Positions 13,235-32,059 of a stretch of DNA of 32,743 nucleotides are shown here, one piece after another. The DNA comes from Planctomycetota bacterium (lineage in GTDB: Bacteria; Planctomycetota; UBA1135; GCA-002686595). Below the pieces are notes generated by a model. That model did not search any database, was not told the origin of the DNA, and saw only the letters and a list, made by a program, of their open reading frames with translations. The stretch is from contig JAPLOE010000275.1 of the NCBI GenBank assembly GCA_026692705.1, forward strand, positions 1 to 32,743, read 5' to 3'. How positions within the stretch are numbered: position 1 is the stretch's first letter; every line of letters begins with the position of its first letter. Both the position numbers and the translations under genes were made by a program.

Positions 13235-14551
13235 ATGACTCTGCGCAACCTCTCGATTCTCGCCCTGCTCTCCGTCGCCAGCGCTCCGGCGCTCGCGCAG
13301 GACCTGCTGATTCCCGATCGCCTCAACCAGCGCGTCCTCCACATCCGCGGCTCGAACGGCACTGTGGTGACGGCGAACTTCATCGTCGACGGCGGACCTT
13401 CGGGCGCCTACGACTTCGTCACGCCGCGCGAGGTGCTGCAGCTCCCGCCGTACCTGTTCGTGCTCGACACGGACGCCGACGCGGTGTTCCGCTTCCGCTG
13501 GAACGGGACGAGCGCGACCTTCGACGCCAAGCTGCAGCCGGGCATCGACGAGGCGCTCGGCATCGCCGCGGACCCGTCGGGCCTGATCTACATCGCCAAC
13601 AACGGCGGCAACAACGGTGCGCCCGGAGTCGCGCTCGTGCGCATGACGCCCACGGGCACCGTGCTGCCGCCGCTGCCGATCGTGGCCTCGCGCCTCGAGG
13701 ACGTCGCGTACCACAACGGCGAGCTCGTCGTCGCCGACTCGATCTCCAACGTGCTGCGCCGCTACTCGCTCTCGGGCGCCGCGCTCGGCACGGTCTCGAA
13801 CGGCACCGCGCCGATCACCACGCCGCGCAGCTGCCTGACCGCGCTGGCCTCGACCGACCTGATCGTCGCCACGGGCGGCGGCACCACCGGCGTGCACCGC
13901 TTCACGTCCGCCTTCGCGGGCTTGTCGTTTGCGTCGTGGGCCTTCTGGAGCGTCGGCGCCGCCGCGGACCTCTCCAACGGCAACTACATCCTCACCGGCC
14001 CCGCGGGTCTCGCCACGCTCAACCCCAACAGCGGCGGGTTCTCGTTCCTCACGATCAGCGGCGGAATCCAGCCGGGCCTGTTCTCGCGCTTCGATCCGGC
14101 CGCGAACTGCGGCTCGATCGCCGTCAGCTACTGCACCGCGGGCACGAACACGGCCGGCTGCACCGGCTCGATCTCCGCGAGCGGCACCGCCAGCGCGAGC
14201 GCGAGCTCGGGCTTCACGCTCTCCGTCAACGGCGTCGAGGGCCAGCGCCTCGGCCTGATCTTCTACGGCCTCTCCGGCCCTGCCGCGCAGCCGTGGGGCA
14301 CGAGCTCGAGCTTCCTGTGCGTCAAGTCGCCGACGCAGCGCATGGACACGCAGGACAGCGGCGGCAGCGTCGGCCTGTGCGACGGCAGCTACTCGCAGGA
14401 CTGGAATGCGTTCCTCGCGGCGCACCCGTCGGCCCTTGGCTCGCCTCGCCAGGCCGGCCAGGCCGTGCACGCGCAGGCCTGGTTCCGCGACCCGCCGAGC
14501 CCGAAGACGACGCACCTGAGCAACGCGCTCGAATTTTTCATCTGCCCCTGA
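13235..14551 (+). CDS. Secreted propeller-like protein with Cys-rich C-terminal module
   Basis: A 438-residue exported protein. It has a clear signal peptide (MTLRNLSILALLSVASAPALA, cut before QDLL). Residues ~25-285 hold repeating strand-rich units such as EALGIAADPSGLIYIANNGG, LEDVAYHNGELVVADSISN and AAADLSNGNYILTGPAG, which look like NHL/PQQ-type propeller blades. The last ~135 residues form a separate module beginning YCTAGTNTAGC and containing VNGVEGQRLGLIFYGL, FLCVKSPTQR, DWNAFLAAHP and QAWFRDPPSPKTT. The same module ends the protein at 31064. AGGAG at 13219-13226 is a good ribosome site. No enzyme motif is seen; a surface or extracellular role is inferred. Confidence 0.85.
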   Translation: MTLRNLSILALLSVASAPALAQDLLIPDRLNQRVLHIRGSNGTVVTANFIVDGGPSGAYDFVTPREVLQLPPYLFVLDTDADAVFRFRWNGTSATFDAKLQPGIDEALGIAADPSGLIYIANNGGNNGAPGVALVRMTPTGTVLPPLPIVASRLEDVAYHNGELVVADSISNVLRRYSLSGAALGTVSNGTAPITTPRSCLTALASTDLIVATGGGTTGVHRFTSAFAGLSFASWAFWSVGAAADLSNGNYILTGPAGLATLNPNSGGFSFLTISGGIQPGLFSRFDPAANCGSIAVSYCTAGTNTAGCTGSISASGTASASASSGFTLSVNGVEGQRLGLIFYGLSGPAAQPWGTSSSFLCVKSPTQRMDTQDSGGSVGLCDGSYSQDWNAFLAAHPSALGSPRQAGQAVHAQAWFRDPPSPKTTHLSNALEFFICP

Positions 14552-14564
14552 TTCGCCTCCGACA

Positions 14565-14609
14565 CTCGGCGCCGGGGAGCAGGTCGACGACCTGAATCCC
14601 GGCGCCGAG
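14565..14609 (+). terminator. Large nested hairpin (likely terminator)
   Basis: The outer arms CTCGGCGCCGGG (14565-14576) and CCCGGCGCCGAG (14598-14609) are perfectly complementary over 12 bp. Inside them CAGGTCG-A-CGACCTG (14580-14594) forms a second 7-bp stem. It starts 14 bases after the stop of the secreted propeller gene. No T-run follows, but the stability is very high. It probably ends or insulates that transcript before the next gene at 14663. Confidence 0.65.
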
Positions 14610-14649
14610 CGCATTGAAGAGCCTCCGTCGCGAGTTCGCGCGCGAGAGC

Positions 14650-14655
14650 TAGGCT
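14650..14655 (+). promoter_or_regulatory. -10-like TAGGCT box
   Basis: TAGGCT stands 7 bases before the ATG of the 653-residue secreted protein, directly after the nested hairpin. It matches the TAnnCT shape found near other starts here. If used, the transcript would be nearly leaderless. Confidence 0.3.
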
Positions 14656-14662
14656 CTGGGCC

Positions 14663-16624
14663 ATGCGACACCTCCTTTCCCTGGGGTTTGCGCTCGTTCT
14701 CGTTCTTGCGGCGCACGCGCAATCCGTTTCGATCCGCGTCGTCGATGCAGCGTCGGGCGCCGCCGTGCAAGGCGCCGACGTGCGCGCCGTCGTCGTGAGC
14801 CACGTCGAGGAGCGCCGCCGCGAGCGCATTCCGCTCTCGGAGATCGCCGAGTGGGAGGCCGAGCGCGAGGCGACGAAGCTGCGCGCGGTGTCGGACGCGT
14901 CGGGCGCCGCGACGCTCGACTTCAGCGCGATCGGGGTTCCGGAGAGCTACGTGCTCCTGAGCGCACGCAGCGGCGACCTGTGGGGCGGGCGCGCGATCGT
15001 GGGGACGGGCGAAGGTGAAGTTGAACTGCGAGTCGAGCCCGACTTCTCTTTCGACGTGCATGTCTTCGATGCGTCGGGCCAGCCGGCTGCGGGAGTTCCG
15101 GTCGCGTACACGCATGCTCTCCCGGAGCACTCGCGGATTCCCAGGCGGATGTGCACCGCTCTGGTGACGAGCGACGTCCGCGGTGTCGCCCGCTTCCCGC
15201 ACGCGCAGGACGTGCTGCGCTCGATGTCGAACACGACGCCCATGTTGTGGGCCGCGATCCCGACGGTGCGGCCCGTGGAGATCGCGATCGACCCGGCGAT
15301 CTCGCAGCAGCCGAGACTCGAGCTTCACCTGCCGCCGTGCGGCCGCGTCCGCTTCCAGTTCGATGCAGGCTCCGCTGGGCAAGTACGACTCCGAAGGGCG
15401 TATCCGAAGCCCTTCGGCGGTGGGGACGCCTGGATGTCGATGGATCCGTGGCGCGTGCCAGTGCGCGATGGCGTCGCGCTGTTCTCGCACGTCGAGCCCG
15501 GGCTCGAGCTGGACTACCTGGTCGAGACTCCCGGCGTCGATGAGCAGAAGACGATGCAGGTCGTCGGGCCGTCGGGCGCTGGCGAGACGCGCGTGGTGAC
15601 TCCGGGCAAGCGGCCGAAGCCGCGGAGCGTCGTCGCGCAGCTCGTCGATCGCAATCGGGAGCCGCTGCGAGACGGAAAGGTCCATCTGGACATCTGCTCG
15701 CATTTGCGGACCGCCAACCGGAGCTCGAGCTCCAATCGCGGCTACCGGAAGCAGGCGGACGCGGACGGCAGGCTCGAGTTCAACATTCCGTCCGAAGAGA
15801 GCGGCGCCGTGGAGCTGGGGTTCTCGGTCGAAGGTGTGGGGGAGTGGAACGGACTCGTGCCGAAGCTGGCGGACGGCGAGCGGCTCGATCTCGGCGCGCT
15901 CGTGCTGGTGCCCATCGGAGACCCGCAGTACCTCGGGAGCCTCGACGATGACGCGCTCGAGCGCGAGCTCCTGCGCATCGAGACGTTGGCGAAGGTCACA
16001 AGCAGCGCTTGGAGCGCGCTCGAAGGCCTCGCCATCGAGGCCGCGCGCCGCGGTGGCGAGCGATGGAGCTCGTTCTTCCGTCGCAGGCTCGACGACCATC
16101 GCGCGGCGGAGCGGGAAGATCGCTACTCCGACCAGACGCTGCCTGATCTTTCCTGGTTCGTTCTGTTGCGCCGCGCGCAGCGACGGCCGGATCCGTGCCG
16201 GCTCGAGGTCCACCCCGATGACCTCAAGCGCGCATCGTTCACGTCACCTGTGCGGCTCCGCGCGGCGGTCCGCAACGTCGATCCCGAGGAGTCCTTCGAG
16301 ACAGGCACTGACGGGTGCTGGAACGTCCTCGCGGAGTTCGAGCCCAACGGGGCTGGCGTGCGCCCGGCGCGTCGTTCGGACCCTCCGATGCGGGGTGGAC
16401 CGGCCGAGCGCTTCCAGCTGCGCCCCGGCGAGCACTCCGCCGAGAAGTTCGACAGCGGCTGGTGGGACATCGACCTCTCTTGGCAATTCGAAGTGCCCGA
16501 AGGGGACTGGCTCTTGCGGCTGGCTTACAGCCCGACGATAGGGTTCGACTACATGACGTCGCCTGTGGTCGTGAAGGTCGCCGCGGAGCCGTTCGTGCTG
16601 CGCGTGCGCGAAGAGAGGAAGTAG
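14663..16624 (+). CDS. Large secreted protein with Ig-like/carboxypeptidase-regulatory-like domains
   Basis: A 653-residue exported protein with a signal peptide (MRHLLSLGFALVLVLAAHA, cut before QSVSI). Several beta-sandwich modules of the carboxypeptidase-regulatory/CnaB type are suggested by repeated openings: SIRVVDAASGAAVQGADVRAVV (~22), FDVHVFDASGQPAAGVPVAYT (~130) and VVAQLVDRNREPLRDGKVHL (~325), each followed by a DASGAATLDF- or DADGRLEFNI-like strand. A helical segment (DDDALERELLRIETLAKVTSSAW) precedes a final beta-rich domain. No catalytic motif is recognised. It may bind sugars or proteins at the cell surface. Codon use is slightly less GC-extreme than in the neighbours. It converges with the sulfatase gene, 3 bp apart. 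Confidence 0.75.
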   Translation: MRHLLSLGFALVLVLAAHAQSVSIRVVDAASGAAVQGADVRAVVVSHVEERRRERIPLSEIAEWEAEREATKLRAVSDASGAATLDFSAIGVPESYVLLSARSGDLWGGRAIVGTGEGEVELRVEPDFSFDVHVFDASGQPAAGVPVAYTHALPEHSRIPRRMCTALVTSDVRGVARFPHAQDVLRSMSNTTPMLWAAIPTVRPVEIAIDPAISQQPRLELHLPPCGRVRFQFDAGSAGQVRLRRAYPKPFGGGDAWMSMDPWRVPVRDGVALFSHVEPGLELDYLVETPGVDEQKTMQVVGPSGAGETRVVTPGKRPKPRSVVAQLVDRNREPLRDGKVHLDICSHLRTANRSSSSNRGYRKQADADGRLEFNIPSEESGAVELGFSVEGVGEWNGLVPKLADGERLDLGALVLVPIGDPQYLGSLDDDALERELLRIETLAKVTSSAWSALEGLAIEAARRGGERWSSFFRRRLDDHRAAEREDRYSDQTLPDLSWFVLLRRAQRRPDPCRLEVHPDDLKRASFTSPVRLRAAVRNVDPEESFETGTDGCWNVLAEFEPNGAGVRPARRSDPPMRGGPAERFQLRPGEHSAEKFDSGWWDIDLSWQFEVPEGDWLLRLAYSPTIGFDYMTSPVVVKVAAEPFVLRVREERK

Positions 16625-16627
16625 TGC

Positions 16628-18193
16628 TCAGCGCGCGAGCGAGGGGTAGCGCGAGTCGAGTTCGGCGCGCAGGCGAGCGAGAGCGCGGGCGGCGTCGCTG
16701 TCGGCGGCGAGCGGCGCGAGCAGCAGGTCGCGCGCTTCGAACCAGTCGGGAGCGCGAGGTGCGTTCGGGGCGTCGTTCGCGGGGGGACCGCCGTGCGTGA
16801 GGTCGAAGAACTGCTCGCGCACTTCGGGCGCCGCAGCGGTGCTCACGGTCTCGCGGATCAGCTTGAAGCGGCCGTCGGTGAGCGCCTGGTTGTGGCGGCG
16901 CGCGCGGAAACTCGGCGGCGGCGCGCCGGTCGCCGGATCGGGCGTGAAGTTCGGGAAGAAGCTCTCGGTGTAGTGGATTTCACGCACCTGCGCCGCGCGG
17001 CCTTCGAGCAGCGGCACGAGCGAACGCGAGTCGCGCGCGGCGTTGGGCGGCAGTTTCGCGCCCGCGAGCTCGACCGCGGTCGCGTAGACATCCTCGAAGC
17101 CGACGAGCGCGTCGCATGCGCGCCCCGCGAGCTTCGGCGCGAGCCGCGGCGAGCGCACGACGAACGGCACGCGACATCCATCCTCGTGCAGCGTGCCCTT
17201 GGAGTGCGCCGGATCGAAGGGCGGCAGGACGCCGCGCGACTCCGTTCCGTTGTCGCCGACGATCACGACCGTCGTGTCGCTGAAGTCGAGCGCCGCGAGC
17301 AGCTGCCCGACCTGCCGATCGAGCTCGCTCACGACGGCGCGCAGGCGCGCGGGATGGCCCTCGGGCTTCTCCGTCGCACCGGGCACGTCGTGCACGGGCG
17401 CGTGCGCGGCGTTGTAGGCGACGTAGAGGAAGTACGGCTCGGGCAGAGAGCGCACGAGCGCGAGCGCGTCCGCCGTCGTGTCGCTCGTGGGATAGTTCTC
17501 CGCGGGCGGCACGCGCTTGGCCTCCTGCTTCACCGTGCCATCGCGCGCGATCGTCGTCTTGAGCCAGTTCGCGTACCCCGCGTTGCGCGCCGTGTCGGGC
17601 GGCGCCTGCAGGTTGAAGAGCGAGCCGGAGAAGCTGTCGAACCACGAGCCGACGGGACGGCCGAGCGGGTGCGCCGGAAACTCGGCGAGCTGCGCGACGT
17701 CCGCGAGGTGCCACTTGCCGACGGCGGCGCACGCGTAGGCCGGCGACGCGCCGTGCAGCGCCTGCGGCAGGATCGGCAGCGCGAGCGAGAGCCCCGCGTT
17801 GCCCGCGTTCGCCTCGCCGTCGTCTCCGGCGTCCTTCACGACCGAGCCCATGCCGTTCGAGCGCGCGTGCAAGCCGGTGAGCAGGCGCGCGCGGCTGGGG
17901 CTGCAGGTCGGCACGGTCCACGCGTGCGTGAACAGCAAGCCCTCGCGAGCGAAGGCGTCGAGCGCGGGCGTGGCGGCGGGAGTGCCGGGCGCGCGGCCGC
18001 GCTCGCGGAAAAGAACTTCGTAGGCGCCGACGAGATCGATCCCGACGTCGTCGAGCACGACCACGACGACGTTGTGCGGCGGAGCCGAGTGGGGGCGGGC
18101 GGGGGCTGCCTGCTCCGGCGCCTGAGCCGTCGCGCAGGCGGCGAGCCACGTGGTCGCCGCGAGCAGGGGAGCGAGGGCGGGGAACTGGAGCAC
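16628..18193 (-). CDS. Sulfatase, predicted lipoprotein
   Basis: A type I formylglycine sulfatase of ~521 residues. From the GTG at 18193 the N-terminus is a lipoprotein signal (VLQFPALAPLLAATTWLAAC, lipid Cys20). Metal-site Asp48-Asp49 are in VVVVLDDVGIDLVGAY. The sulfatase signature CSPSRARLLTG carries Cys97, which becomes formylglycine, and Arg101. GKWHL, VAYNAAHAPVHD and IVGDNGTESRG supply further active-site residues, so the enzyme looks active. The substrate is unknown; such enzymes commonly remove sulfate from polysaccharides. A longer form from ATG 18256 is possible, but its extra Arg-rich residues would spoil the signal. No modifying enzyme or glycosidase is adjacent. Confidence 0.9.
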   Translation of the reverse strand: MLQFPALAPLLAATTWLAACATAQAPEQAAPARPHSAPPHNVVVVVLDDVGIDLVGAYEVLFRERGRAPGTPAATPALDAFAREGLLFTHAWTVPTCSPSRARLLTGLHARSNGMGSVVKDAGDDGEANAGNAGLSLALPILPQALHGASPAYACAAVGKWHLADVAQLAEFPAHPLGRPVGSWFDSFSGSLFNLQAPPDTARNAGYANWLKTTIARDGTVKQEAKRVPPAENYPTSDTTADALALVRSLPEPYFLYVAYNAAHAPVHDVPGATEKPEGHPARLRAVVSELDRQVGQLLAALDFSDTTVVIVGDNGTESRGVLPPFDPAHSKGTLHEDGCRVPFVVRSPRLAPKLAGRACDALVGFEDVYATAVELAGAKLPPNAARDSRSLVPLLEGRAAQVREIHYTESFFPNFTPDPATGAPPPSFRARRHNQALTDGRFKLIRETVSTAAAPEVREQFFDLTHGGPPANDAPNAPRAPDWFEARDLLLAPLAADSDAARALARLRAELDSRYPSLAR

Positions 18194-18547
18194 GGGGCGA
18201 TTCTGCGCTCGCCCGCGCGCGCTTGCACGACCCGCGACCGGCCGCCGCGGCGGCATGCCCGGTGGAAAGGACTTCGCGCCGACGGTGTGACCGACGTACC
18301 TGCTTCTTTGTAGTTGCTTCGGCTCCCGCCCCGAAAGCGGCTTGCCCCTTGATTGCACCCATGCAGGTTGTGTCGATTCTTTCCGAGCCCCGGGCCCGCT
18401 TCGGTCCGCCGCGGGATCTCCGTGCAGCGAGTTCGGCCACCTCGCCGTGGGCCGGGCTCCCGTCGCGGGGGATCCGCGGCCGATGAAGGGCTCCGCCCGA
18501 TCGCTTCACCCTCTCCCACCGATCGCCCCTAGCCCCCGTCCCGCGCC
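18194..18547. other. Intergenic region between sulfatase and isomerase genes
   Basis: A 354-bp divergent spacer. It contains a locally AT-richer patch (about 18301-18375) suitable for promoters in either direction, and TAGCCC at 18530-18535, 12 bases before the isomerase GTG. No tRNA, riboswitch core or credible small gene was found. Part of it (to 18256) could belong to a longer sulfatase N-terminus. Confidence 0.4.
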
Positions 18548-19468
18548 GTGACCGCCCCCGGAATCCCCAACGAGTTCGTGCTCTCGACCTCGTGCTTCGG
18601 GACACGCCTGCGAACCATCGAAGACCAGGCCTTCGCCGCGGTCGCGATGGGCTTCCGCAAGCTCGAGCTCGGCTGTGCGGAAACGCCGCCGACGCTCAAC
18701 GGCTTCGTCGACTCGCAGCGCGAGACCGGGATCCGCGTGACGTCGGTGGTTTCCGGCTGCCTGAAGCCCTCGAACGAACGCCCCGTGTGCCAGCTGCTGT
18801 CGAGCCCCAACGCCGACGAGCGCGAGCAGGCGATGGGCTCGGTGCGCCGCCACATCCAGCTCGCGCAGAAGCTGCAGGCGCCCGCGGTCGTGCTGCGCGG
18901 CAGCTCGGTCGCCGATCCGAAGCTGCGGCAGGAAGCCGAGGTGCTCAACCTCGAGCTCGCGCGCGACGGCCTGACCGACGAGCTCGCCGAGAAGGTGCGC
19001 GACTTCGTGCTGCGCGTGCAGAAGAAGGGCCAGCGCCAGCTGGAGCACCTCTGCCGCTCGCTGCACACGCTCCTGACCGAGTTCCCCGCGAGCAAGATCG
19101 CGATCGAGCCCGGCCTGCAGATCGACGACCTGCTCAACTTCGAGGCCGTCGGCTGGGTGCTCGAAGACCTCTCCAAGCGCGGGCTGGGTTACTGGCACGA
19201 CGTCGGCCGCATCCACATGCGCGAGAAGGCCGGCCTCCCCGGCCAAGGGCGCTGGCTCGAGTCCTACGCCGGCCGCATGGTCGGCATCCACCTGCAGGAC
19301 GCCGCCGACGGCGAGTACCAGATGCCCCCCGGTTCAGGGGAAGTCGACTTCCGCTTGGTGGCCGAGTACACGCCCTCGACCGCGCTGAAAGTGCTCGAGA
19401 TCGACCAGAGGCACGGCCGCACCGAGATCCTCGGCGCCGTCCAGTTCCTCTCGGGCAAGGGCTTCTAG
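18548..19468 (+). CDS. Sugar phosphate isomerase/epimerase-like TIM-barrel protein
   Basis: A 306-residue protein of the AP-endonuclease-2/xylose-isomerase-like TIM-barrel superfamily. The N-terminal strand pattern is FVLSTSCFGTRLRTIEDQAFAAVAMGFRKLELG. Candidate metal ligands follow in order: AIEPGLQIDDLL (Glu), YWHDVGRIHMREKAG (Asp, His) and VGIHLQDAADGEYQMPPGSGEVDF (His, Glu). The final helix carries LEIDQRHGRTEILGAVQFL. These enzymes isomerise or epimerise sugars, inositols or keto acids; the substrate cannot be told. The start is GTG. Its neighbour across the spacer is a sulfatase, hinting at carbohydrate use, but they are divergent and the link is weak. Confidence 0.8.
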   Translation: MTAPGIPNEFVLSTSCFGTRLRTIEDQAFAAVAMGFRKLELGCAETPPTLNGFVDSQRETGIRVTSVVSGCLKPSNERPVCQLLSSPNADEREQAMGSVRRHIQLAQKLQAPAVVLRGSSVADPKLRQEAEVLNLELARDGLTDELAEKVRDFVLRVQKKGQRQLEHLCRSLHTLLTEFPASKIAIEPGLQIDDLLNFEAVGWVLEDLSKRGLGYWHDVGRIHMREKAGLPGQGRWLESYAGRMVGIHLQDAADGEYQMPPGSGEVDFRLVAEYTPSTALKVLEIDQRHGRTEILGAVQFLSGKGF

Positions 19469-19489
19469 ATCGGGGTGCCGGGTAGGGGC

Positions 19490-19517
19490 TTGCCAAGCTC
19501 CTTGCCGTCGCTATCCT
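19490..19517 (+). promoter_or_regulatory. Putative promoter of tRNA-Gly
   Basis: TTGCCA (19490-19495) and TATCCT (19512-19517) are separated by 16 bases and end 45 bases before the tRNA. This fits a housekeeping sigma promoter and lies just after the isomerase stop. Confidence 0.45.
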
Positions 19518-19562
19518 CTCCGCCTCTCGCCGCTTCCTTGGGAGCGACGGGGCTGACAAAAC

Positions 19563-19637
19563 GCGGGCGTAGCTCAGTGGTAGAGCGCCACCTTGCCAAG
19601 GTGGATGTCGAGGGTTCGAATCCCTTCGCCCGCTCCA
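19563..19637 (+). tRNA. tRNA-Gly(GCC)
   Basis: A complete cloverleaf. Acceptor arms GCGGGCG and CGCCCGC pair perfectly. The D arm is AGCTCAGTGGTAGAGC. The anticodon stem CCACC/GGTGG encloses TTGCCAA with anticodon GCC (19595-19597). The T arm is AGGGTTCGAATCCCT. The discriminator is T, as usual for bacterial tRNA-Gly, and CCA is encoded. It reads GGC and GGU codons. Confidence 0.97.
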
Positions 19638-19952: not shown

Positions 19953-22082
19953 ATGGCTCTACTGCCCCTGTTCCTCGCCCTGCAGGAAGCCGGCTCCGAA
20001 GCCGCCGCTTCCAAGAACCCGCAGGCCCCCGTCTCCCAGACCGTCGTCACGGCCCCGCGCGCCAGTCGCACCGCGACCACCTCGGGAATGGCCCAGCAGG
20101 TGATCTCGTCCGAAGAGCTCGCCGCCACCGGTGAGCGCTCGCTGCCGCGCGCGATCGCGAAGGCGAGCGGGTTGTTCGTGCAGGAGACCAACCTCGGCGG
20201 CGGCGCCCCGATCATCCGCGGCCTGATCGGCAACCAGGTGCTGATCGTGGTCGACGGCGTGCGCCTGAACGACGGCGCGACGCGCGGCGGCCCGAACCAA
20301 TCGCTCAACGGCATCGATCCGACCAACGTCGAGCGGGTCGAGATCGTGCGCGGCCCGACGGGCGTGCTGTACGGCTCGGACGCGCTCGGCGGCACGATCC
20401 TGATCTGGACCAAGACGCGCGCGGCCGCCGCCCGCGAGGGGCTGACCGACCAGGACCAGCGCCTGCGCGCGGTCGCCGGCGTCGAGGCCAACACGGCCGT
20501 CAGCGGCGCGCGCGAGTACGGCTCGCTGTCCTACGGCTTCGACAACGACGGCCTGCTGTTCGGCGGCTCATTCCAGGACTGGCAGAAGCTGCGCTCGGGC
20601 GATGGCGACGTCGAGAACACGGGCTACCACGGGCAGTCGTGGTTCGGCTCCTGGGAGCACCGCCTGTCCGACACGGGCTACCTGCGTCTGTCGGCGATGC
20701 GCACGCGCGACTTCGGCATCCCGCGCTCCGACCGCATGAACGTCGGCTTCCAGCAGACGCAGCCGTCGGACGCCGAGAACTTCTTCAAGCTGCAGGACCG
20801 CGAGCGCTACCTGCTCGCCTGGAACGAGAAGGGCACCGGCTTCTCCGACGACATGCAGGTGCGCCTGTCCCTGCGCGAATACACCGAGAACCGCCAGATC
20901 CGCGCGCGCGGTTCGTCGACGCGCCGCCTCGAGACGGACAACATCGAGACCGGCGGCATCGGAGCCGACTGGCGCAAGGCGATCGGCGACTCGCACTTGC
21001 TGACCTGGGGCTTCGACCTCGACTACGACGATGTCGATTCCAAGCGCACCAACGTCAACATCAACACCAACGTCGCGACCAGCGCGCTCGGCAACTTCGC
21101 GCCGAATTCGAGCTACCTGTACAGCGGCGTGTTCCTGCGCGACGAGATCTACGCCTTCGAGGCGTTCGACCTCACCGCGGGCCTGCGCTACTCCTACTTC
21201 GAGTTCGGCTTCGACGACACGACGACGGGTTCGGACGTCGACGGCGACTTCGACGCGTTCACGGGCTCGCTGCAGGCGGCGCGCGATCTCGCCGAGGGCG
21301 TGCGCGTCACTGCGACGCTCGCGCAGGCCTTCCGCGCCCCGAACCTGTCGGAACTGGCGCGCAACGCGACCTTCAACGGCGGCACAGAGCTCGCCAACCC
21401 CAACCTCGATCCCGAGGAATCGCTGTACGAGGAGCTCGCGCTCGACATGAAGCGCGCGAGCTGGAACTGGTCGCTCGCGATCTACCACAACGAGATCAGC
21501 GACGTGATGGGGCGGCGGCTGGTGAGCGACCCGACCCCCGGCGGCCCGATCGGCGACGAGACCTACATCCGCGAGAACACCGGCGACCTCGACCTGTACG
21601 GCATCGAGACGCGCTACCGCCGCAAGCTCGGCGGACCGGACTCGCCCTACGCGCTCCAGACCTACCTCGAGTACACGTACGGCAAGCAGTACGACGACTT
21701 CGTCGACACGATCAACGGCGGCCAGCCGTTCGACGACAAGCCGGCGAGCAAGATCCCTCCGCTGCACGGCAGCCTCGCGCTGATGTACGAGCCCGCGCAG
21801 GCCAAGGGCTGGTTCGGCTGGGCGAGCACCTCGTTCCACTTCGCGACGTCGCAGAACAAGCTCTCGCCGGCCGACCTCGGCGACCCGCGCATCGACCCCA
21901 ACGGCACCAACGGCTGGACGCGCGTCGACATCGACGCCGGCGGCCCGGTCGGCGACCCCGCGAGCGGCACGACCTGGAACCTCGGCCTGCACAACCTGTT
22001 CGACGAGGACTACCGCGTGCACGGCTCGGGCATCAATGCGCAGGGCCTGGGACTGGTCTTTGGCGTGCAGATGAGCCTCTGA
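19953..22082 (+). CDS. TonB-dependent outer-membrane receptor
   Basis: A 709-residue outer-membrane gated channel that imports a ligand (iron chelate, vitamin or sugar) using TonB energy. A short signal (MALLPLFLALQ) is followed by a possible TonB box (~residues 28-36, SQTVVTAPR). The plug domain has the characteristic APIIRGLIGNQVLIVVDGVRLNDG and then NVERVEIVRGPTGVLYGSDALGGTILIWTK. The remaining ~500 residues are amphipathic strands with tyrosine/aromatic ends (LAQAFRAPNLSELARNATFNGG, NLDPEESLYEELALDMKR) and end NLFDEDYRVHGSGINAQGLGLVFGVQMSL, the typical barrel closure. The receptor size fits siderophore or cobalamin types, but no ligand clue is nearby. A TonB-like gene follows, so they probably work as a pair. 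Confidence 0.93.
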   Translation: MALLPLFLALQEAGSEAAASKNPQAPVSQTVVTAPRASRTATTSGMAQQVISSEELAATGERSLPRAIAKASGLFVQETNLGGGAPIIRGLIGNQVLIVVDGVRLNDGATRGGPNQSLNGIDPTNVERVEIVRGPTGVLYGSDALGGTILIWTKTRAAAAREGLTDQDQRLRAVAGVEANTAVSGAREYGSLSYGFDNDGLLFGGSFQDWQKLRSGDGDVENTGYHGQSWFGSWEHRLSDTGYLRLSAMRTRDFGIPRSDRMNVGFQQTQPSDAENFFKLQDRERYLLAWNEKGTGFSDDMQVRLSLREYTENRQIRARGSSTRRLETDNIETGGIGADWRKAIGDSHLLTWGFDLDYDDVDSKRTNVNINTNVATSALGNFAPNSSYLYSGVFLRDEIYAFEAFDLTAGLRYSYFEFGFDDTTTGSDVDGDFDAFTGSLQAARDLAEGVRVTATLAQAFRAPNLSELARNATFNGGTELANPNLDPEESLYEELALDMKRASWNWSLAIYHNEISDVMGRRLVSDPTPGGPIGDETYIRENTGDLDLYGIETRYRRKLGGPDSPYALQTYLEYTYGKQYDDFVDTINGGQPFDDKPASKIPPLHGSLALMYEPAQAKGWFGWASTSFHFATSQNKLSPADLGDPRIDPNGTNGWTRVDIDAGGPVGDPASGTTWNLGLHNLFDEDYRVHGSGINAQGLGLVFGVQMSL

Positions 22083-22091
22083 ACGCGGCCG

Positions 22092-24983: not shown

Positions 24984-24990
24984 GGCGGGC

Positions 24991-25008: not shown

Positions 25009-25029
25009 GTCGGCACTCTCCCTCCCCCG

Positions 25030-25656: not shown

Positions 25657-26680
25657 GTACGTTCCCGAGCCCGTGCAACGCGCGGTCGTGATCGGCGGCG
25701 GGAGCTGGGGCACCGCGCTCGCGCTGCTGCTCGCGCGCAAGGGCGTCGAGGTCAACGTGTGGTGCAACCAGCGCACGCAGGCCGACGAGTTCAACGCCGC
25801 GCGCGCCAACACGCGCTACCTGCCGGGCGTCGAGCTGCCGGCGAACCTGCGTTTCACGGCCGATCCGCACCGCGCGGCGGCCGGGGCGCAGATCGCGGTG
25901 AGCGCCGTGCCGACGCAGTTCCTGCGGCGCGTCGCGGCGCGCTTCGAGGACGCGCTCGCCGGCAACGTCACGATCGTGTCGGCCACCAAGGGGCTCGAGA
26001 TCGAGACGCTCTCGCGGCCGACGGAAATCCTCGAGGAAGTGCTCGGGACGCGATCGCTCGCCGTGCTCTCGGGGCCGAGCCACGCCGAGGAAGTCGCGCG
26101 CGGCCAGCCGGCGACGGTCGTCGCGGCGTCGAAGGTGCCCGAGGTCGCGGTGCAGGCGCAAGCGGCCTTCAACGGCGACTTCTTCCGCGTCTACACGAGC
26201 TCCGACCTGCTCGGCGTCGAGCTCGCGGGCGCGCTCAAGAACGTGATCGCGCTCGCCGCCGGCATCGGCGACGGGCTCGCGCTCGGCGACAACGCCAAGG
26301 CGGCGCTCGTCACGCGCGGCATGGTCGAGATGGCGCGCGTCGGCGTCTCGCGCGGCGCCCGCATGGAGACGTTCTTCGGCCTCGCTGGCATCGGCGACCT
26401 CGTGACGACCTGCTGCTCGCGCCACTCGCGCAACCGCGCGGTCGGAGAGGCCATCGGCCGCGGCGAGACGCTCGAGCAGGTGCTCGCGCGCATGCAGATG
26501 GTCGCCGAGGGCGTGTGGACCACGAAGGCGCTGTTCGGGCCGGAATCGGAGCTCTCCGACGTCTCGATGCCGATCGCCGCCGAGGTCCACGCCGTGCTGT
26601 TCGAATCCAAGCCGCCGCGCGCCGCCGTCGCCGACCTGATGCGACGCGAGCCCGCGCCGGAGATGAAAGGTCTGGTCTGA
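25649..26680 (+). CDS. gpsA: NAD(P)H-dependent glycerol-3-phosphate dehydrogenase
   Basis: GpsA reduces dihydroxyacetone phosphate to sn-glycerol-3-phosphate for phospholipid synthesis. The 343-residue protein has the Rossmann loop VIGGGSWGTALALLLARKG, the NAD-domain motif SATKGLE, and SGPSHAEEVARGQPATVV. The catalytic-domain block ELAGALKNVIALAAGIGDGLALGDNAKAALVTRG is split here over the conserved Lys that binds substrate. GLAGIGDLVTTCCSRHSRNRAVG follows. All are standard. The GTG start lies inside the end of plsY, and the TGA overlaps the ATG of the next membrane gene (TGATG), so three genes form one operon. Confidence 0.97.
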   Translation: MAEYVPEPVQRAVVIGGGSWGTALALLLARKGVEVNVWCNQRTQADEFNAARANTRYLPGVELPANLRFTADPHRAAAGAQIAVSAVPTQFLRRVAARFEDALAGNVTIVSATKGLEIETLSRPTEILEEVLGTRSLAVLSGPSHAEEVARGQPATVVAASKVPEVAVQAQAAFNGDFFRVYTSSDLLGVELAGALKNVIALAAGIGDGLALGDNAKAALVTRGMVEMARVGVSRGARMETFFGLAGIGDLVTTCCSRHSRNRAVGEAIGRGETLEQVLARMQMVAEGVWTTKALFGPESELSDVSMPIAAEVHAVLFESKPPRAAVADLMRREPAPEMKGLV

Positions 26681-27084
26681 TGCCCGGTCCGCAGGTCCTG
26701 TTCCCGACGTTCCTGATCCTGACGGTCGCGCTGCTCGGGCTGGACGTCTACACGGGCCTCAAGGCCAAGCTCGCCGCGCACCTCACGTTCGTCGTGATCA
26801 CGGTGGCGTCGCTCGTCGCCTCGATCTGGTTCGCGCTCGAGCTCGGCGAGCTCTACGACCTCGAATCGGCGGGCTGGATCACGCCGGTGCACCTCAAGCT
26901 CGCGCGCATCGCGACCTACGCCTACTTGCTGCCGACCGTGAGCGGCATCATGACGCTGCGCGACCGCAAGCACCGCAAGCTGCACTTCCGCCTCGCGATG
27001 CTCACGCTCTCGCTGACCGTGCTCGCCGCGCTCACCGGCACGTGGATGATCCTCGCGGCCCAGCCGCTACCCGCGCAGCCGTAG
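26680..27084 (+). CDS. Uncharacterised four-helix membrane protein with conserved-looking histidines
   Basis: A 134-residue protein with four predicted membrane helices: FPTFLILTVALLGLDVYTGL, HLTFVVITVASLVASIWFAL, LARIATYAYLLPTVSGIM and FRLAMLTLSLTVLAALTGTWMI. Histidines sit near helix ends (AAHLTF, PVHLKLARI, RKLHFRLAM), a spacing reminiscent of heme-binding four-helix proteins such as cytochrome b561-like families. That is only a suggestion. The start overlaps the gpsA stop (TGATG), so it is translationally coupled to plsY-gpsA. The last 18 bp overlap the convergent small membrane gene. No function is assigned. Confidence 0.7.
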   Translation: MPGPQVLFPTFLILTVALLGLDVYTGLKAKLAAHLTFVVITVASLVASIWFALELGELYDLESAGWITPVHLKLARIATYAYLLPTVSGIMTLRDRKHRKLHFRLAMLTLSLTVLAALTGTWMILAAQPLPAQP

Positions 27085-27399
27085 CACGATCCACGGCAGC
27101 ACGATCATCATCCCGTTGGCGCAGATCGGGATGGCGGCGAGCAGGATCCAGACCGTGCGCGCGCGGATCGTCAGCACCGCCAGGATCAGCCCCGGCACCG
27201 TGAAGGCCGACGAGGCGAGCAGCGTCCCCAGCAACCCCGGCCCCGTCGCCGGATCCAGCGCTCGCCACAGGAGCGCCCCGCCCCACACCGCCGCCCCCAG
27301 CGTCGCCAGCGTCATCGACGCCATCCACGTCCGGTGGCGCCGCCGCACCACGGCCTCGATCGGATACAGGCGTCGCAACGGGCGGGGCATGGCCCGCAT
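27067..27399 (-). CDS. Small uncharacterised membrane protein
   Basis: A 110-residue protein (107 if ATG 27390 is used) with a basic N-terminus (PRPLRRLYPIEAVVRRRHR) and three hydrophobic helices: MASMTLATLGAAVWGGALL, LLASSAFTVPGLILAVLTI and WILLAAIPICANGMMIVLPWIVL. The positive-inside rule places the N-terminus in the cytoplasm. No family is recognised. It converges on and overlaps the preceding membrane gene by 18 bp. Confidence 0.55.
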   Translation of the reverse strand: MRAMPRPLRRLYPIEAVVRRRHRTWMASMTLATLGAAVWGGALLWRALDPATGPGLLGTLLASSAFTVPGLILAVLTIRARTVWILLAAIPICANGMMIVLPWIVLRLRG

Positions 27400-27443
27400 T
27401 CTGGGCCCTGCAGGCCCCCGGCACCATGCCCGCGCGCTTCCCG

Positions 27444-27472
27444 TTGGCGTTTCGCTCCCCCCTCGCTAGACT
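27444..27472 (+). promoter_or_regulatory. Promoter of tRNA-Pro
   Basis: TTGGCG (27444-27449), a 17-base spacer and TAGACT (27467-27472) form a good housekeeping promoter, 31 bases upstream of the tRNA. It is the clearest -35/-10 pair in the window. Confidence 0.6.
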
Positions 27473-27503
27473 CTGCGGCCCTCTTTCCGCGAGTGACTTG
27501 GGT

Positions 27504-27581
27504 CGGGGCGTGGCGCAGCCTGGCTAGCGCGCTTCCTTGGGGTGGAAGAGGTCGCAGGTTCAAATCCTGTCGCCCCGACCA
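27504..27581 (+). tRNA. tRNA-Pro(GGG)
   Basis: A complete cloverleaf. Acceptor arms CGGGGCG and CGCCCCG pair perfectly. The anticodon stem CTTCC/GGAAG encloses TTGGGGT with anticodon GGG (27539-27541). The T arm is CAGGTTCAAATCCTG. The discriminator is A and CCA is encoded. It reads CCC and CCU proline codons. Confidence 0.96.
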
Positions 27582-27676
27582 CCTATTCCTGTCCGGCCGG
27601 CCGCGTTGGCGCCCCGTGGGGCTCCCGCGACCCCTGCGCGAGGCTTGCCCCGAACGGGGCTGGTAGCCTGCGACCC

Positions 27677-28303
27677 ATGCAGAGCAAGGCCACCAGTGTC
27701 GCCGCGTACCTGAAGTCGCTCCCGGCGGATCGGCGCGGCGAGATCGAGCGCGTGCGCGACGTGGTCAACCGCAACCTCGACCGCGAGGGGTACGAGGAGG
27801 GGATGAGCTACGGGATGATCTGCTGGGTGGTGCCGCACCGGCTGTTCCCGGCGGGGTACCACTGCAAGCCGGAACAGGCGTTGCCGTTCATGGCGCTCGC
27901 GTCGCAGAAGAACTATTGCTCGGTGTACGTGCCGATCGTGGTGCCGGCGGACGGCGCGAGCCAGGACGCGCAAGGCAAGCTGCACGCGTGGTTCATCGAG
28001 GCGTGGAGGAAGACCGGCAAGAAGCTCGACATGGGGAAGTGCTGCGTGCGCTTCAAGCGCGCGGACGAGCTCGCGCTCGACGTCATCGGTGAGCTCGTCG
28101 CGAGCCTGCCGGCGAAGAAATTCGTCGCGGGCTACGTCGCCGCGCTCGACGCGCAGGCGAAGCGGGGACCCAAGCCGCGCGCCGAGATTCGCGCCGAGGC
28201 CGCGGCTCGCGAGGCGGCGAAGAAGGCGGCCAAGAGCACGCCGAAACGCGCTCCGAAGGCCGCGAAGAAGGTGGCGAGAAAGTCGAGCGGCGCCGCGCGC
28301 TAG
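27677..28303 (+). CDS. DUF1801-family protein with Lys/Ala-rich histone-like tail
   Basis: A 208-residue protein. Residues ~1-150 match the DUF1801/YdhG-like fold: VAAYLKSLPADRRGEIERVRDVV, YEEGMSYGMICW, SQKNYCSVYV, then KKLDMGKCCVRFKRADEL. The family is small, soluble and of unclear function. After ~155 the protein becomes a basic, low-complexity tail (AAREAAKKAAKSTPKRAPKAAKKVARK in two runs) like eukaryotic histone H1 tails and bacterial nucleoid proteins, so DNA or RNA binding is plausible. The ATG at 27677 is 7 bases after a TAGCCT box with no Shine-Dalgarno, suggesting a nearly leaderless transcript. Confidence 0.8.
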   Translation: MQSKATSVAAYLKSLPADRRGEIERVRDVVNRNLDREGYEEGMSYGMICWVVPHRLFPAGYHCKPEQALPFMALASQKNYCSVYVPIVVPADGASQDAQGKLHAWFIEAWRKTGKKLDMGKCCVRFKRADELALDVIGELVASLPAKKFVAGYVAALDAQAKRGPKPRAEIRAEAAAREAAKKAAKSTPKRAPKAAKKVARKSSGAAR

Positions 28304-28315
28304 CCTTCGCTCTCC

Positions 28316-28348
28316 ATGCAACCCGTCGAGCCCGAGATCGCGCGATGA
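28316..28348 (+). CDS. Possible 10-codon upstream ORF coupled to the DoxX-like gene
   Basis: ATG at 28316 opens MQPVEPEIAR and stops at TGA 28346-28348, which overlaps the DoxX-like ATG (ATGA). It lies 9 bases after a TAGCCT box (28301-28306), which in turn overlaps the stop of the DUF1801 gene. It could be a coupling leader peptide or chance; the peptide has no recognisable features. Confidence 0.25.
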   Translation: MQPVEPEIAR

Positions 28349-28716
28349 ACATCCTGCTCTGGGTCCTGCAGATCCTCGCCGCGCTGATGTACGGCGCGTC
28401 GGGCGTGATGAAGACGTTCCTGTTCGACAAGGTGACCGGTGACGTCGCGTCGTTCGGCGCATTGCCGAAGAAGGTCTGGATGGCGCTCGGGCTTTCCGAG
28501 CTCGTCTGCGTCGTGGGCCTGATCCTCCCGGCCGCGCTGCACTGGCACCCGCGCCTCGTCGGCCTGTCCGCGGCCGTGCTCGCACTCGAGAGCCTCGTGT
28601 TTGTCTGGGTGCACGTGAAGTACCGCGAGACCCCGCAAATCGTGATGGTCGTCGTGCTCGGCCTGCTGATGGCCTTCGTCGCCTACGGCCGCCTCGTGCT
28701 CTCGCCGCTGGAGTGA
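28345..28716 (+). CDS. DoxX-like membrane protein
   Basis: A 123-residue protein with four membrane helices of the DoxX-like type: LLWVLQILAALMYGASGVMK, WMALGLSELVCVVGLILPAAL, LVGLSAAVLALESLVFVWVHV and MVVVLGLLMAFVAYGRLVL. The first helix pattern (LQILAALMYGASGVMK) and the GLSELVCVVGLILPA block are typical. DoxX-like proteins are small quinone- or redox-linked membrane proteins of mostly unknown role. The start overlaps a short upstream ORF. It lies between the DUF1801 gene and the operator of the VOC gene. Confidence 0.75.
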   Translation: MNILLWVLQILAALMYGASGVMKTFLFDKVTGDVASFGALPKKVWMALGLSELVCVVGLILPAALHWHPRLVGLSAAVLALESLVFVWVHVKYRETPQIVMVVVLGLLMAFVAYGRLVLSPLE

Positions 28717-28823
28717 GAGGCGCGGGGCCGACCGCAGGGCCGGGGCGGGGCGGAAGGGGGTCGCGGGCCCGTTCGAGCCGGATTGCAGCCGGGGTTCGGC
28801 GTTGCTTTTTGGCCGTGGACAGT

Positions 28824-28839
28824 TACTACAGATGTAGTA
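28824..28839. promoter_or_regulatory. BlaI/MecI/CopY-type operator
   Basis: TACTACAGATGTAGTA is a perfect palindrome built on TACA-N2-TGTA, the core recognised by BlaI, MecI and CopY repressors. TTGCTT (28802-28807) lies 16-17 bases upstream of TACTAC/ACTACA, so the operator probably covers the -10 region of the promoter for the VOC gene at 28919. No BlaI-like repressor or BlaR1-like sensor gene is in the window. Confidence 0.7.
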
Positions 28840-28918
28840 GCATGCGCCGGGCGGACAGGGCGTGTCGCTACCGTGGTGGGGCGGCGCGACTGCGCCAGAA
28901 GGAACGAAGGAACGCTCG

Positions 28919-29401
28919 ATGAACGCACTACCGTCGCTCGCCGTCGCCGGCCTCGCCGCCGCGTGGCTCTTCACCCAGGACCCGCAGGCGAAGGAAACGC
29001 CGAAGGACAACTCCATGCAGCTTGGCAACTTCTCGGTCAGCCTCAACGTCAAGGACATCAAGGCTTCGCAGGCGTTCTACGAGAAGCTCGACTTCAAGCA
29101 GGTCGGCGGGAATCCCGCGCAGAACTGGGTCGTGCTGCAGAACGGTCCCACGACCATCGGGCTCTTCCAGGGCATGTTCGAGCGCAACATGCTGACGTTC
29201 AATCCGGGCTGGAACGCGAAGAAGGAGACGCTGAAGGAGTTCGAGGACGTGCGCGAGCTGCAGGCCAAGCTCAAGGAACGCGGCCTCACGCTCAAGCCCG
29301 AAGCCGATCCCGCCACCGACGGCCCGGCCTTCTTCATGCTCACCGACCCCGACGGCAACCCGATCCTCGTCGACCAGCACGTGCCCAAGCCGAAGCGCTG
29401 A
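28919..29401 (+). CDS. VOC (glyoxalase/bleomycin-resistance fold) protein, possibly exported
   Basis: A 160-residue protein. The N-terminus (MNALPSLAVAGLAAAWLFTQ) is hydrophobic and looks like an export signal or anchor, which is unusual for the family. One vicinal-oxygen-chelate module follows: GNFSVSLNVKDIKASQAFYEKLDFKQVGG, VVLQNGPTTIGLFQG, a helix (EFEDVRELQAKLKERGLTLK) and the closing FFMLTDPDGNPILVDQH. VOC proteins bind metals and act as lyases, dioxygenases or resistance proteins; which applies here is unknown. AAGG at 28907-28910 precedes the ATG by 8 bases. A BlaI/MecI-type operator 80 bases upstream implies derepression by a BlaI-like factor encoded elsewhere. Confidence 0.85.
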   Translation: MNALPSLAVAGLAAAWLFTQDPQAKETPKDNSMQLGNFSVSLNVKDIKASQAFYEKLDFKQVGGNPAQNWVVLQNGPTTIGLFQGMFERNMLTFNPGWNAKKETLKEFEDVRELQAKLKERGLTLKPEADPATDGPAFFMLTDPDGNPILVDQHVPKPKR

Positions 29402-29411
29402 CGCGGCGCGG

Positions 29412-30077
29412 TCAGGGCTTGCGCTGGACCATCGCCGTGACCCAGGTCGGCACGTAGGGGGGCGTGCAGCCTTTCGAGACGGGCCAGTCCTTGTAGAGAC
29501 CGATTTTCTCGCCGAGGGCGAGCACACGCGCGCGGAACTTGGCGTGGTGGATGCCGAGGTTGCCGAGCGCCATGTTCATCGTCCATTGCACTTCCGGCGC
29601 GGCTTTCGGCAGTTCCTTCTCGATGCGCGCGAGCAGCGCGTCGAGGTCGAGGCCGTCGGCGGACTTCGCGATGCGGCTCGCGGTCAGGTTCCAGCCGGCG
29701 CGCGCGGTCCAGCGCTCCTTCGACTTCATCCACTTCTCGCGCAGCTGCTCCTTGTCCGCGTGCTGCGCGACGACGTAGGAGTTGAGCCAGTCGGCGACCT
29801 GCGAGCACGTGGTCGAGCGCGTGAGGCGGTCGAGGTCGTCCGCGCTGAGGTCCGTGGGCTTGAGCAGGAGCGTCGCGACGAGCTGCGCCTCGACGTTGCC
29901 CGACTCCCACAGCTCGAGCGCGAGCTTCTGGTTCTGCTGGAGCGCCTTCGCGACCTTGCGCACGTCGCCGAGCGGCACTCCGAACTGGTTGGCGGGCGCG
30001 CCGGACTTCGCGTTGTGCTTGCGGCGGGTCTCGTTGCCGAGCGCTTCGAGCTGGCCGAGGATCTGCGGGACCTTCAT
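29412..30077 (-). CDS. DNA alkylation repair protein, AlkD-like
   Basis: A 221-residue all-helical protein of the AlkD-like HEAT-repeat family. Known members excise positively charged alkylated bases such as N3- or N7-alkylpurines. Visible blocks are QFGVPLGDVRKVAKAL, LELWESGNVEAQLVATLLL, ADWLNSYVVAQ, WTARAGWNLTASRIAK and VQWTMNMALGNLGIHH, ending with KGCTPPYVPTWVTAMVQRK, typical of one AlkD-like subgroup. The ATG at 30077 was chosen; upstream codons do not match the family. It follows the acetolactate-decarboxylase-like gene after 41 bp in the same direction and may share its transcript. It converges with the VOC gene. Confidence 0.85.
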   Translation of the reverse strand: MKVPQILGQLEALGNETRRKHNAKSGAPANQFGVPLGDVRKVAKALQQNQKLALELWESGNVEAQLVATLLLKPTDLSADDLDRLTRSTTCSQVADWLNSYVVAQHADKEQLREKWMKSKERWTARAGWNLTASRIAKSADGLDLDALLARIEKELPKAAPEVQWTMNMALGNLGIHHAKFRARVLALGEKIGLYKDWPVSKGCTPPYVPTWVTAMVQRKP

Positions 30078-30118
30078 GGGCGCGATGATGACCGCGGTGG
30101 CGCGCTCAGGCGAGAGCT

Positions 30119-30835
30119 TCAGCGTGCGGGGATGCGCACGCGGGCTCCGGCGCGCAACGTGCCGCCATCGAGGTGGCCGGAGAGCGAGGGGACGGGCGCG
30201 GACTCGACGAAGTGCACGTGGAGGCGCTCGCCATGGTGCACGAGCACACCCGGTTCGGCGGGCGCGTGGAAGCCGGCGAGGCGCACGGCGAGCGAAGGGC
30301 GCGCGAGCACCACGAAGGAGTCCGTGGCGCCGGGGTGCGCGTGCGGGCAGGCGCCGGCGACTACGTGGGCTTCGAGCGCGTCGAGCGTGCCTTCGGCGAG
30401 GAACGGCCAGCTCGCGTCGGCGGTGGGCCCGAGCTCGCCCAGCCAAATCCCGAACTCCTCGAGCGTCAGGTCGCGCGGCGTGAGGTGCTCGACCCAGCGC
30501 ACGTTGCCCGAGAGCGCGAGCAGCGTCGCCTGTTCGCCGGGGAGCGGCTCGCGGGCGACCTCGACTCGGCCCGAGACGGCCCGCGCGATCCACAGCTCGC
30601 CCTCGACCACCGTAACTTCGCCCGCGAGGCCCGCGAGTGCGCCGACGCCGACCGTCGCCCGCAGTCCCGGAACCTCGGCGAGCGCCACCCGGCCCTCGCT
30701 CCGCCCCTCGCGCATCACTTCGCGCAGGGTGCCGAAGCGCAGCTCGCGCGCCCCGGCCTGGGGAGCCGCACAGCTCGCCACGAGGCTCGCGAGCGCGACC
30801 GAGAGGGCGGCGAGGCGGACGGGGAGCCGATGCAT
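30119..30835 (-). CDS. Lipoprotein resembling alpha-acetolactate decarboxylase
   Basis: A 238-residue protein. It has a lipoprotein signal (MHRLPVRLAALSVALASLVASC, lipid Cys22). The rest follows the AlsD/BudA pattern: FGTLREVMREGRSEGRVALAEV, then GVGALAGLAGEVTVVEGELWIA (Glu73 at the place of the AlsD active-site Glu), and near the end LHVHFVESAPVPSLSGHLDGG. His206, His208 and His221 match the HxH...H zinc ligands, with two extra residues between them. The classical enzyme decarboxylates acetolactate to acetoin in the cytoplasm, so a lipid-anchored exported form is unusual. The native substrate here may differ. It is upstream of the AlkD-like gene. Confidence 0.72.
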   Translation of the reverse strand: MHRLPVRLAALSVALASLVASCAAPQAGARELRFGTLREVMREGRSEGRVALAEVPGLRATVGVGALAGLAGEVTVVEGELWIARAVSGRVEVAREPLPGEQATLLALSGNVRWVEHLTPRDLTLEEFGIWLGELGPTADASWPFLAEGTLDALEAHVVAGACPHAHPGATDSFVVLARPSLAVRLAGFHAPAEPGVLVHHGERLHVHFVESAPVPSLSGHLDGGTLRAGARVRIPAR

Positions 30836-30909
30836 GGGGTCCAAACTACCTCGAGCACCGGCCGCCCGGCGTCGTCGGCAGGTCGCGCCGGAAAAAGCCC
30901 ACCCTGCCG

Positions 30910-30942
30910 AAGTTTCGTACCGAGTTTGCAATTGCGAAACTT
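30910..30942. promoter_or_regulatory. Inverted repeat in AT-rich island
   Basis: AAGTTTCG (30910-30917) and CGAAACTT (30935-30942) are perfect 8-bp arms around 17 bases that contain the inner palindrome GCAATTGC. It lies in the spacer between the divergent AlsD-like lipoprotein and the secreted protein at 31064, so it could regulate either or both. Confidence 0.45.
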
Positions 30943-30973
30943 TCCCCGGGTTCGGGTCTTGCGGCCCCGGTGT

Positions 30974-30990
30974 TTCGAGGCATTCTCGAA
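30974..30990. promoter_or_regulatory. Second inverted repeat upstream of secreted protein
   Basis: TTCGAG and CTCGAA are perfect 6-bp arms around GCATT, 32 bases downstream of the previous repeat and 73 bases before the ATG at 31064. It may be an operator half or a small leader hairpin. Confidence 0.3.
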
Positions 30991-31063
30991 CCACAGCGGA
31001 GGCGACGCCCGTGAACGTCTGCCCCCGATCGCATCGAAGTCCCCGACTCAGGAGTTCTCCAGC

Positions 31064-32059
31064 ATGCGTCTCTCTCTCGCGTTTGCCCTTGCAGCTCTCG
31101 CTGCCGCCCCCGCGGCCGCGCAGGTGTCGGCCATCGGTCCCTTCACCGGCAGCCTCCAGGAATCCTTCGAAGGCCCGCAGGTGATCTTCACCCCGTGCCT
31201 CACCTACCCGGCGTTCGGTGGCGCGGCCACGCTCTGCACCCCCAGCGGCAGCAACTGCCACACGACCTCGGGATGGGGCTTCATGTGCACCATCTTCCCG
31301 CAGAACGGTGGCAAGTTCTTCGCAAGCATCGGCGGCCCGACGGAGATCATCTTCTCGAACGACATCTTCACGTTCGGCGGCTACTTCGGTTCGAACAGCC
31401 CCGGCGGCGACGCCACGTTCGACTTCTATGACGCCTCGAACAACCTGATCTCGAGCGAGATCGCGCTGTTCCCGGCCGACTGCCAGTGGCGCTGGTTCGG
31501 CTGGCAGAGCTGCTCGACCGCGATCCGCAAGGTCGTCGTCACCGGCATCAACACCTCGGGCGGCGGCTACGTCGACATGGACGGCCTCGAGGCCGGCTCG
31601 TCGCTCCCCGCCGGCTGCAACCCCGGTCCGCAGCCCTATTGCACTTCGGGCACGAGCACTGCCGGTTGCGTCTCGGTGATCAGCGCCACGGCCCAGCCGA
31701 GCGCGACGTTCTCGACGCCCTGCCAGATCAACGTCTCGGCCGTCGAAGGCCAGCGCTCGGGCATCATCTTCTACGGCCTCGACGCCCTGCCCCAGCCGTG
31801 GTGCAGCACGGGTGGCACGAGCTTCCTGTGCGTGAAGGCCCCGACCCAGCGCACCTTCGCCGCCAGCTCCGGTGGCACCGCCGGCGCCTGCAACGGCAGC
31901 CTCTCGCTCGACTGGAACGCGTTCCACGCCGCCAACCCCGGCTCGCTCGGCACGCCCTTCTCGGTCGGCGACGAGGTCTACCTCCAGGCCTGGTTCCGCG
32001 ACCCGCCGGCCTGCAAGACGACCACCCTCTCGGGCGGTCTCGAGCTGACGGTGCAGTAA
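31064..32059 (+). CDS. Secreted protein sharing the Cys-rich C-terminal module
   Basis: A 331-residue exported protein with a signal peptide (MRLSLAFALAALAAAPAAA, cut before QVSAI) and AGGAG nine bases upstream of the ATG. Residues ~20-185 are a beta-rich domain with several cysteines. Segments such as SLQESFEGPQ, IFSNDIFTFGGYFGSNSP, ATFDFYDASNNLI and VVVTGINTSGGGYVDMDGLE look like the lectin-like sandwich domains of extracellular proteins. From residue ~195 (PQPYCTSGTSTAGC) to the end it carries the module also found at 13235: VSAVEGQRSGIIFYGL, FLCVKAPTQR, DWNAFHAANPGSLG and LQAWFRDPPACKTTTLS. Function is unknown. A strong hairpin terminator follows the stop. Confidence 0.85.
   Translation: MRLSLAFALAALAAAPAAAQVSAIGPFTGSLQESFEGPQVIFTPCLTYPAFGGAATLCTPSGSNCHTTSGWGFMCTIFPQNGGKFFASIGGPTEIIFSNDIFTFGGYFGSNSPGGDATFDFYDASNNLISSEIALFPADCQWRWFGWQSCSTAIRKVVVTGINTSGGGYVDMDGLEAGSSLPAGCNPGPQPYCTSGTSTAGCVSVISATAQPSATFSTPCQINVSAVEGQRSGIIFYGLDALPQPWCSTGGTSFLCVKAPTQRTFAASSGGTAGACNGSLSLDWNAFHAANPGSLGTPFSVGDEVYLQAWFRDPPACKTTTLSGGLELTVQ

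Follow-up and report, generated by a model that had tools for sequence, protein, structure and literature searches.

The window analysed here comprises 32,743 nucleotides of a Planctomycetota bacterium (contig JAPLOE010000275.1 of assembly GCA_026692705.1), and two genes on its forward strand encode predicted exported proteins that share a C-terminal module. The features concerned are the following.

13235..14551, + strand: exported protein 1 (P0001, 438 aa), with a signal peptide, a weakly NHL/propeller-like N-terminal part and the C-terminal module (translation; Pfam)
13235..13297, + strand: putative Sec signal peptide of P0001, MTLRNLSILALLSVASAPALA, followed by Q (read off the translation by a home-made rule, not SignalP)
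14126..14548, + strand: C-terminal module of P0001, 141 aa, stop codon at 14549-14551 (alignment; AlphaFold2 beta-sandwich, pLDDT 96.8)
31064..32059, + strand: exported protein 2 (P0002, 331 aa), with a signal peptide, an N-terminal part without Pfam match and the C-terminal module (translation; Pfam)
31064..31120, + strand: putative Sec signal peptide of P0002, MRLSLAFALAALAAAPAAA, followed by Q (read off the translation by a home-made rule)
31637..32056, + strand: C-terminal module of P0002, 140 aa, stop codon at 32057-32059 (alignment; genome search)

In a single comparison, residues 290-436 of P0001 and 183-330 of P0002 were 52% identical (E=1e-43), and no significant similarity was detected outside the module. 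The resemblance of the two modules is far beyond chance, since the same genome holds 148 matches. The original prediction had claimed such homology over the last ~135 residues, with differing N-terminal domains, and all the motifs it gave (YCTxGTxTAGC, VEGQRxGxIFYGL, FLCVKxPTQR, DWNAFxAxxPxxLG, QAWFRDPP and KTTxLS) were present; its description of the module as Cys-rich corresponded to four near-invariant cysteines per ~136 positions. Both signal peptides are of typical Sec type and end in AxA before Q. The N-terminal part of P0001 resembled an NHL propeller weakly (Pfam NHL, E=0.0023, under the Pfam cut-off), that of P0002 had no Pfam match, and neither module matched Pfam or NCBIfam. A putatively exported thioredoxin-like protein (WCGPC; PF00085, E=3e-11) is encoded at 11768-13213 (+) and ends about 20 bases upstream of the P0001 gene (13235), with which it possibly forms one operon. 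A TonB-dependent receptor gene (PF00593, PF07715) is located between the two module genes at 19953-22082 (+).

The genome of the window (G000; 4.95 Mb, 89% complete, 348 contigs) was searched with one module as query and then with an iterated profile. The single-module query located 148 places, a lower bound given that 150 of the 173 candidates were scored. Nearly all of these loci were retrieved, stop-to-stop frames were collected and iteration of the profile yielded 148 frames. With at least 148 copies in this genome and relatives in many Planctomycetota families, the earlier observation, for which a profile search of this genome and of other Planctomycetota had been proposed, turned out to be an understatement. 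More divergent further copies also occurred in G000, for instance in C214, C106, C348 and C139. In one locus, L094 (G000:C204:9000-26600), at least seven module proteins are encoded in a tandem array, several of them with FG-GAP-like N-terminal parts and with divergent modules; this array is a local gene expansion. When 89 members of the family were compared with Pfam and NCBIfam by single-sequence and profile searches, none matched above the curated cut-off, in agreement with the earlier statement that no named domain was known. Likewise, no description of the module was found in the open-access literature searched.

The position of the module within its proteins was near-strictly C-terminal, as the original prediction had supposed. 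It ended 2-9 residues before the stop codon in 143 of the 144 G000 frames with a visible stop, and the profile match ended 3-6 residues before the stop in all 120 closed frames from relatives. No frame of the G000 set contained two modules, and none were in tandem. The chain end itself was conserved (...QxWxRDPxxxxxxLSNALxFxxxP-stop): the final residue was Pro in 124 of 144 G000 frames (86%) and in 116 of 120 frames from relatives (97%), compared with 11% of the other long frames of the retrieved loci, a background that includes spurious frames. Internal occurrence, named in the original prediction as an argument against a sorting role, was restricted to two proteins of one architecture, all other copies with a visible stop being terminal. 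In L052 of G000 (C155:23093-24451), a signal peptide is followed by the module and then by a domain that is FGE/SUMF1-like by eye. The same order, module then FGE/SUMF1-like domain, was found in L277 of G092, which belongs to another genus; apart from L277, divergent copies elsewhere in Planctomycetota with a visible stop were all C-terminal. These two proteins suggest either that a free C-terminus is not absolutely required or that both serve another role. An action of FGE on the cysteines of the module was considered and rejected: the FGE substrate motif is CxPxR and that of the module is CxxxPxxR, the Cys of which covaries with C3 as its disulfide partner.

After removal of the module, the 144 N-terminal parts fell into 55 clusters (BLAST E<=1e-5), 38 of which were singletons, with expanded clusters of 27, 19 and 10 members among the rest. 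Pfam families identified among them included enzymes (subtilases, matrixins (M10), M14, M28, S15, endonuclease I, GSDH and GHL10) as well as P-domains, FG-GAP, RCC1, thrombospondin repeats, beta-helices, legume lectins and Laminin_G_3. These N-terminal parts are typical extracellular cargo. Under a home-made rule, 112 of the 136 frames that could be assessed have a putative signal peptide and one has a lipobox; the true share of signal peptides is higher, as several of the 24 frames without a call visibly have a signal peptide from a non-ATG start. The module proteins were thus, as previously claimed, predicted exported proteins with unrelated N-terminal partners (at least 112 of 136 with a putative signal peptide; 55 dissimilar groups). 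The predicted mature N-terminus was Gln (AxA before Q) for 70 of the 112 called signal peptides, and such an N-terminal Gln plus the terminal Pro could shield both chain ends from exopeptidases. Among paralogue pairs with homologous N-terminal parts, median identity was 53% for the module and 37% for the N-terminal part, and the module was the more conserved in 156 of 179 pairs, which are not independent of one another. Slower evolution of the module would follow from constraint by a shared partner, and could also be purely structural.

The AlphaFold2 model of the module, based on 89 own-genome rows (pLDDT 96.8), displayed about nine strands and one helix and predicts an Ig-like beta-sandwich. 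The last predicted element of the chains is a beta-strand that finishes 2-9 residues short of the stop codon, and there is no transmembrane helix. The same strand order was predicted for a Cys-less relative from another family (pLDDT 95.7). Covariation was analysed among 289 sequences, divergent ones included: agreement was complete for C3 and C63 (272 of 272) and all but complete for C12 and C83 (270 of 271), other Cys pairs being more often discordant. This joint presence or absence points to two disulfides, C3-C63 and C12-C83, deduced from covariation and not from coordinates. Foldseek comparison of two confident models with the PDB, and of one with BFVD, gave no match at E<=1e-3. The top matches were Ig-like domains and BslA (TM ~0.4-0.5, high rmsd), and because of their weakness no function was taken from this resemblance.

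Profile-profile comparison aligned the module with divergent groups over the full length at probabilities of 99.2 and 99.9%; as these groups came via the A2 profile or from G000, the comparison supports full-length homology, not independent discovery. The divergent forms, mostly Cys-less, hold the same C-terminal place in many other Planctomycetota families, and in many of the Cys-less ones the last residue is not Pro. The distribution of the Cys form was bimodal in the family to which the window belongs, with 50 to at least 134 copies in 21 genomes, many of these counts being lower bounds, and 0-6 in 10. A Cys-less profile (A4) retrieved 26-89 copies from the tested genomes poor in the Cys form (G155, G383 and G351) and at least 150 from each of three genomes of other families (G103, G045 and G179). 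Across the phylum, A4 matched 56 of the 294 genomes sampled at E<=1e-5 and did not match the other 238; the 56 take in every listed genome of the order of the window and many other families. A pattern-based scan of GTDB contigs was run with alignment A3, A2 being too diverse for pattern searching, and the best 80 of its 407 matches were all Planctomycetota MAGs. No module relatives were found among the plasmids, phages and viral contigs searched, and all close relatives found were uncultured MAGs. In one genome (G285:C2, near 80506-80934), the module lies inside an open frame of 24,335 codons, possibly a giant surface protein.

Several known C-terminal sorting systems share traits with the module. 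The T9SS CTD of Bacteroidota (TIGR04183, Por_Secre_tail) is likewise a C-terminal Ig-like beta-sandwich on many unrelated Sec-exported proteins, the cargo of which also includes proteases and other hydrolases. T9SS CTDs have been described as having an Ig-like sandwich fold and as depending on their outermost C-terminal residues for export (PMC11285876), and a Sec signal peptide combined with a C-terminal Ig-like sandwich was also found in the module proteins (signal peptides by the home-made rule, fold predicted). However, TIGR04183 has 72 profile positions versus ~136 in the module, the module of the window's clade has two putative disulfides, unlike the T9SS CTD, and none of 89 modules matched TIGR04183 or another NCBIfam tail model. 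TIGR04183 gave one internal sub-cut-off match in G000 and one match above the cut-off in G355, the Bacteroides control being positive, and SprA_N (PF14349) gave none in 8 genomes, without a responding positive control. By sequence, the module is outside the T9SS CTD family and appears to follow the same logic.

PEP-CTERM tags are also C-terminal and occur on many exported proteins per genome. They consist of a short motif, a transmembrane helix and a basic tail, whereas the module is a folded domain that has neither such helix nor basic tail. The exosortase (PF09721) was not found in G000, G285 and G355, three of the module-richest genomes, and was found in the control and in other Planctomycetota, including other module-bearing genomes; it is therefore neither required for the module nor correlated with it, and was rejected as its partner in G000. 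The C-terminal sorting logic is shared with LPXTG/sortase systems too, but module proteins have no LPXTG-TM-tail layout. Sortase (PF04203) gave no match in 8 genomes, with three positive controls, and this candidate was discarded for G000 as well. The YTV-domain cysteine-rich cell-wall proteins of Planctomycetales (PMC8567305) resemble module proteins in being exported, Cys-bearing and from Planctomycetota. Since no Pfam family matches the module, it is not YTV; it also differs from YTV proteins in that it occurs once, at the C-terminus of varied cargo, and in that its cysteines are dispensable in other families. Secretins (PF00263, GspD) were numerous, with 7 matches in G000 and 5-10 in 7 other genomes, so that a type II route is available. 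Their presence is necessary for T2SS export of module proteins and not specific, type IV pili also using secretins. The T2SS exports folded proteins and would thus fit a disulfide-bonded module, which again is not specific evidence. Targeted searches (exosortase, sortase, T9SS models and secretin) found no translocon, protease or anchor gene dedicated to the module, and the co-occurring processing or secretion gene envisaged in the original prediction was not identified. As neither exosortase nor sortase was found in G000, and no T9SS tail domain either, the module does not belong to the systems with which the original prediction compared it.

Taken together, we consider that the module probably serves, at the C-terminus, for sorting and/or surface retention, and that it is read as a folded whole including its end. 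Sec would take the module protein out of the cytoplasm, and once in the periplasm the module would adopt its Ig-like beta-sandwich fold, locked in the window's clade by the disulfides C3-C63 and C12-C83. The folded module and its fixed end (...QxWxRDPxxxxxxLSNALxFxxxP-stop) would be recognised by an outer-membrane machine for export or attachment that these proteins share, and that machine would move the unrelated N-terminal domains to the cell surface, or hold them there; the module may or may not be cleaved later. Conservation of the final residue may also stem from the way the last strand folds. The earlier sorting or anchoring reading, a proposed function, was thus partly supported: by the terminal position, the unrelated partners, the signal peptides and the lack of a named domain, and not by a partner gene.

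The main rival explanation is that the module binds non-covalently, as a lectin- or CBM-like domain or an adhesive Ig-like one, and would so keep secreted enzymes on the organism's own exopolymer, envelope or substrate, without taking part in passage across the outer membrane. The weak likeness of the beta-sandwich to adhesin/Ig-like domains (TM ~0.4), the abundance of hydrolases and lectins in the cargo and the two proteins with a non-C-terminal module are consistent with such binding. However, CBMs and adhesive Ig domains are found N- or C-terminally as well as in tandem, whereas the module was terminal in 143 of 144 cases, never duplicated and conserved in its last residue; moreover, no CBM or lectin family matched it, and a pure binding role seems rather unlikely. 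Clearly less probable is the view that the module, unread by any machine, serves as a pro-domain or as a C-terminal cap for folding or stability, acting as an intramolecular chaperone or as a closed disulfide-linked fold whose final Pro opposes carboxypeptidases. The disulfides, the final Pro in 86-97% of frames and the Gln start predicted for 70 of 112 mature chains, which could cyclise so that both ends might resist exopeptidases, would suit such a cap. Yet it would be unusual for one cap to serve at least 55 unrelated kinds of N-terminal part, among them propellers and enzymes that fold independently, and many divergent Cys-less forms of other families have no final Pro. Expansion of some N-terminal kinds (the clusters of 27, 19 and 10) could also point to a structural unit without tag function that multiplied by paralogy and simply inherited its C-terminal place. 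The 55 dissimilar clusters, 38 of them singletons, all in the same order, and the recurrence of this domain order in many other families make that scenario very improbable.

As an extension of the preferred sorting and retention reading, the module superfamily may be the cargo signal for an undescribed system by which Planctomycetota secrete proteins across the outer membrane or attach them to the surface, distinct from T9SS, exosortase and sortase; it would also make up the largest class of cargo in these genomes. We advance this proposal tentatively and with somewhat less than even confidence. Protein delivery to the planctomycete surface is poorly known. The domain described here is unannotated, occurs on at least 148 exported proteins in a single genome, has the place and cargo range of a sorting tag and recurs in related forms in many families across the phylum. 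It offers a handle on this process: it may serve as a domain for reporter fusions, as bait for the machinery and as a predictor of the surface proteome, and it is an obvious candidate for inclusion in Pfam as a new family.
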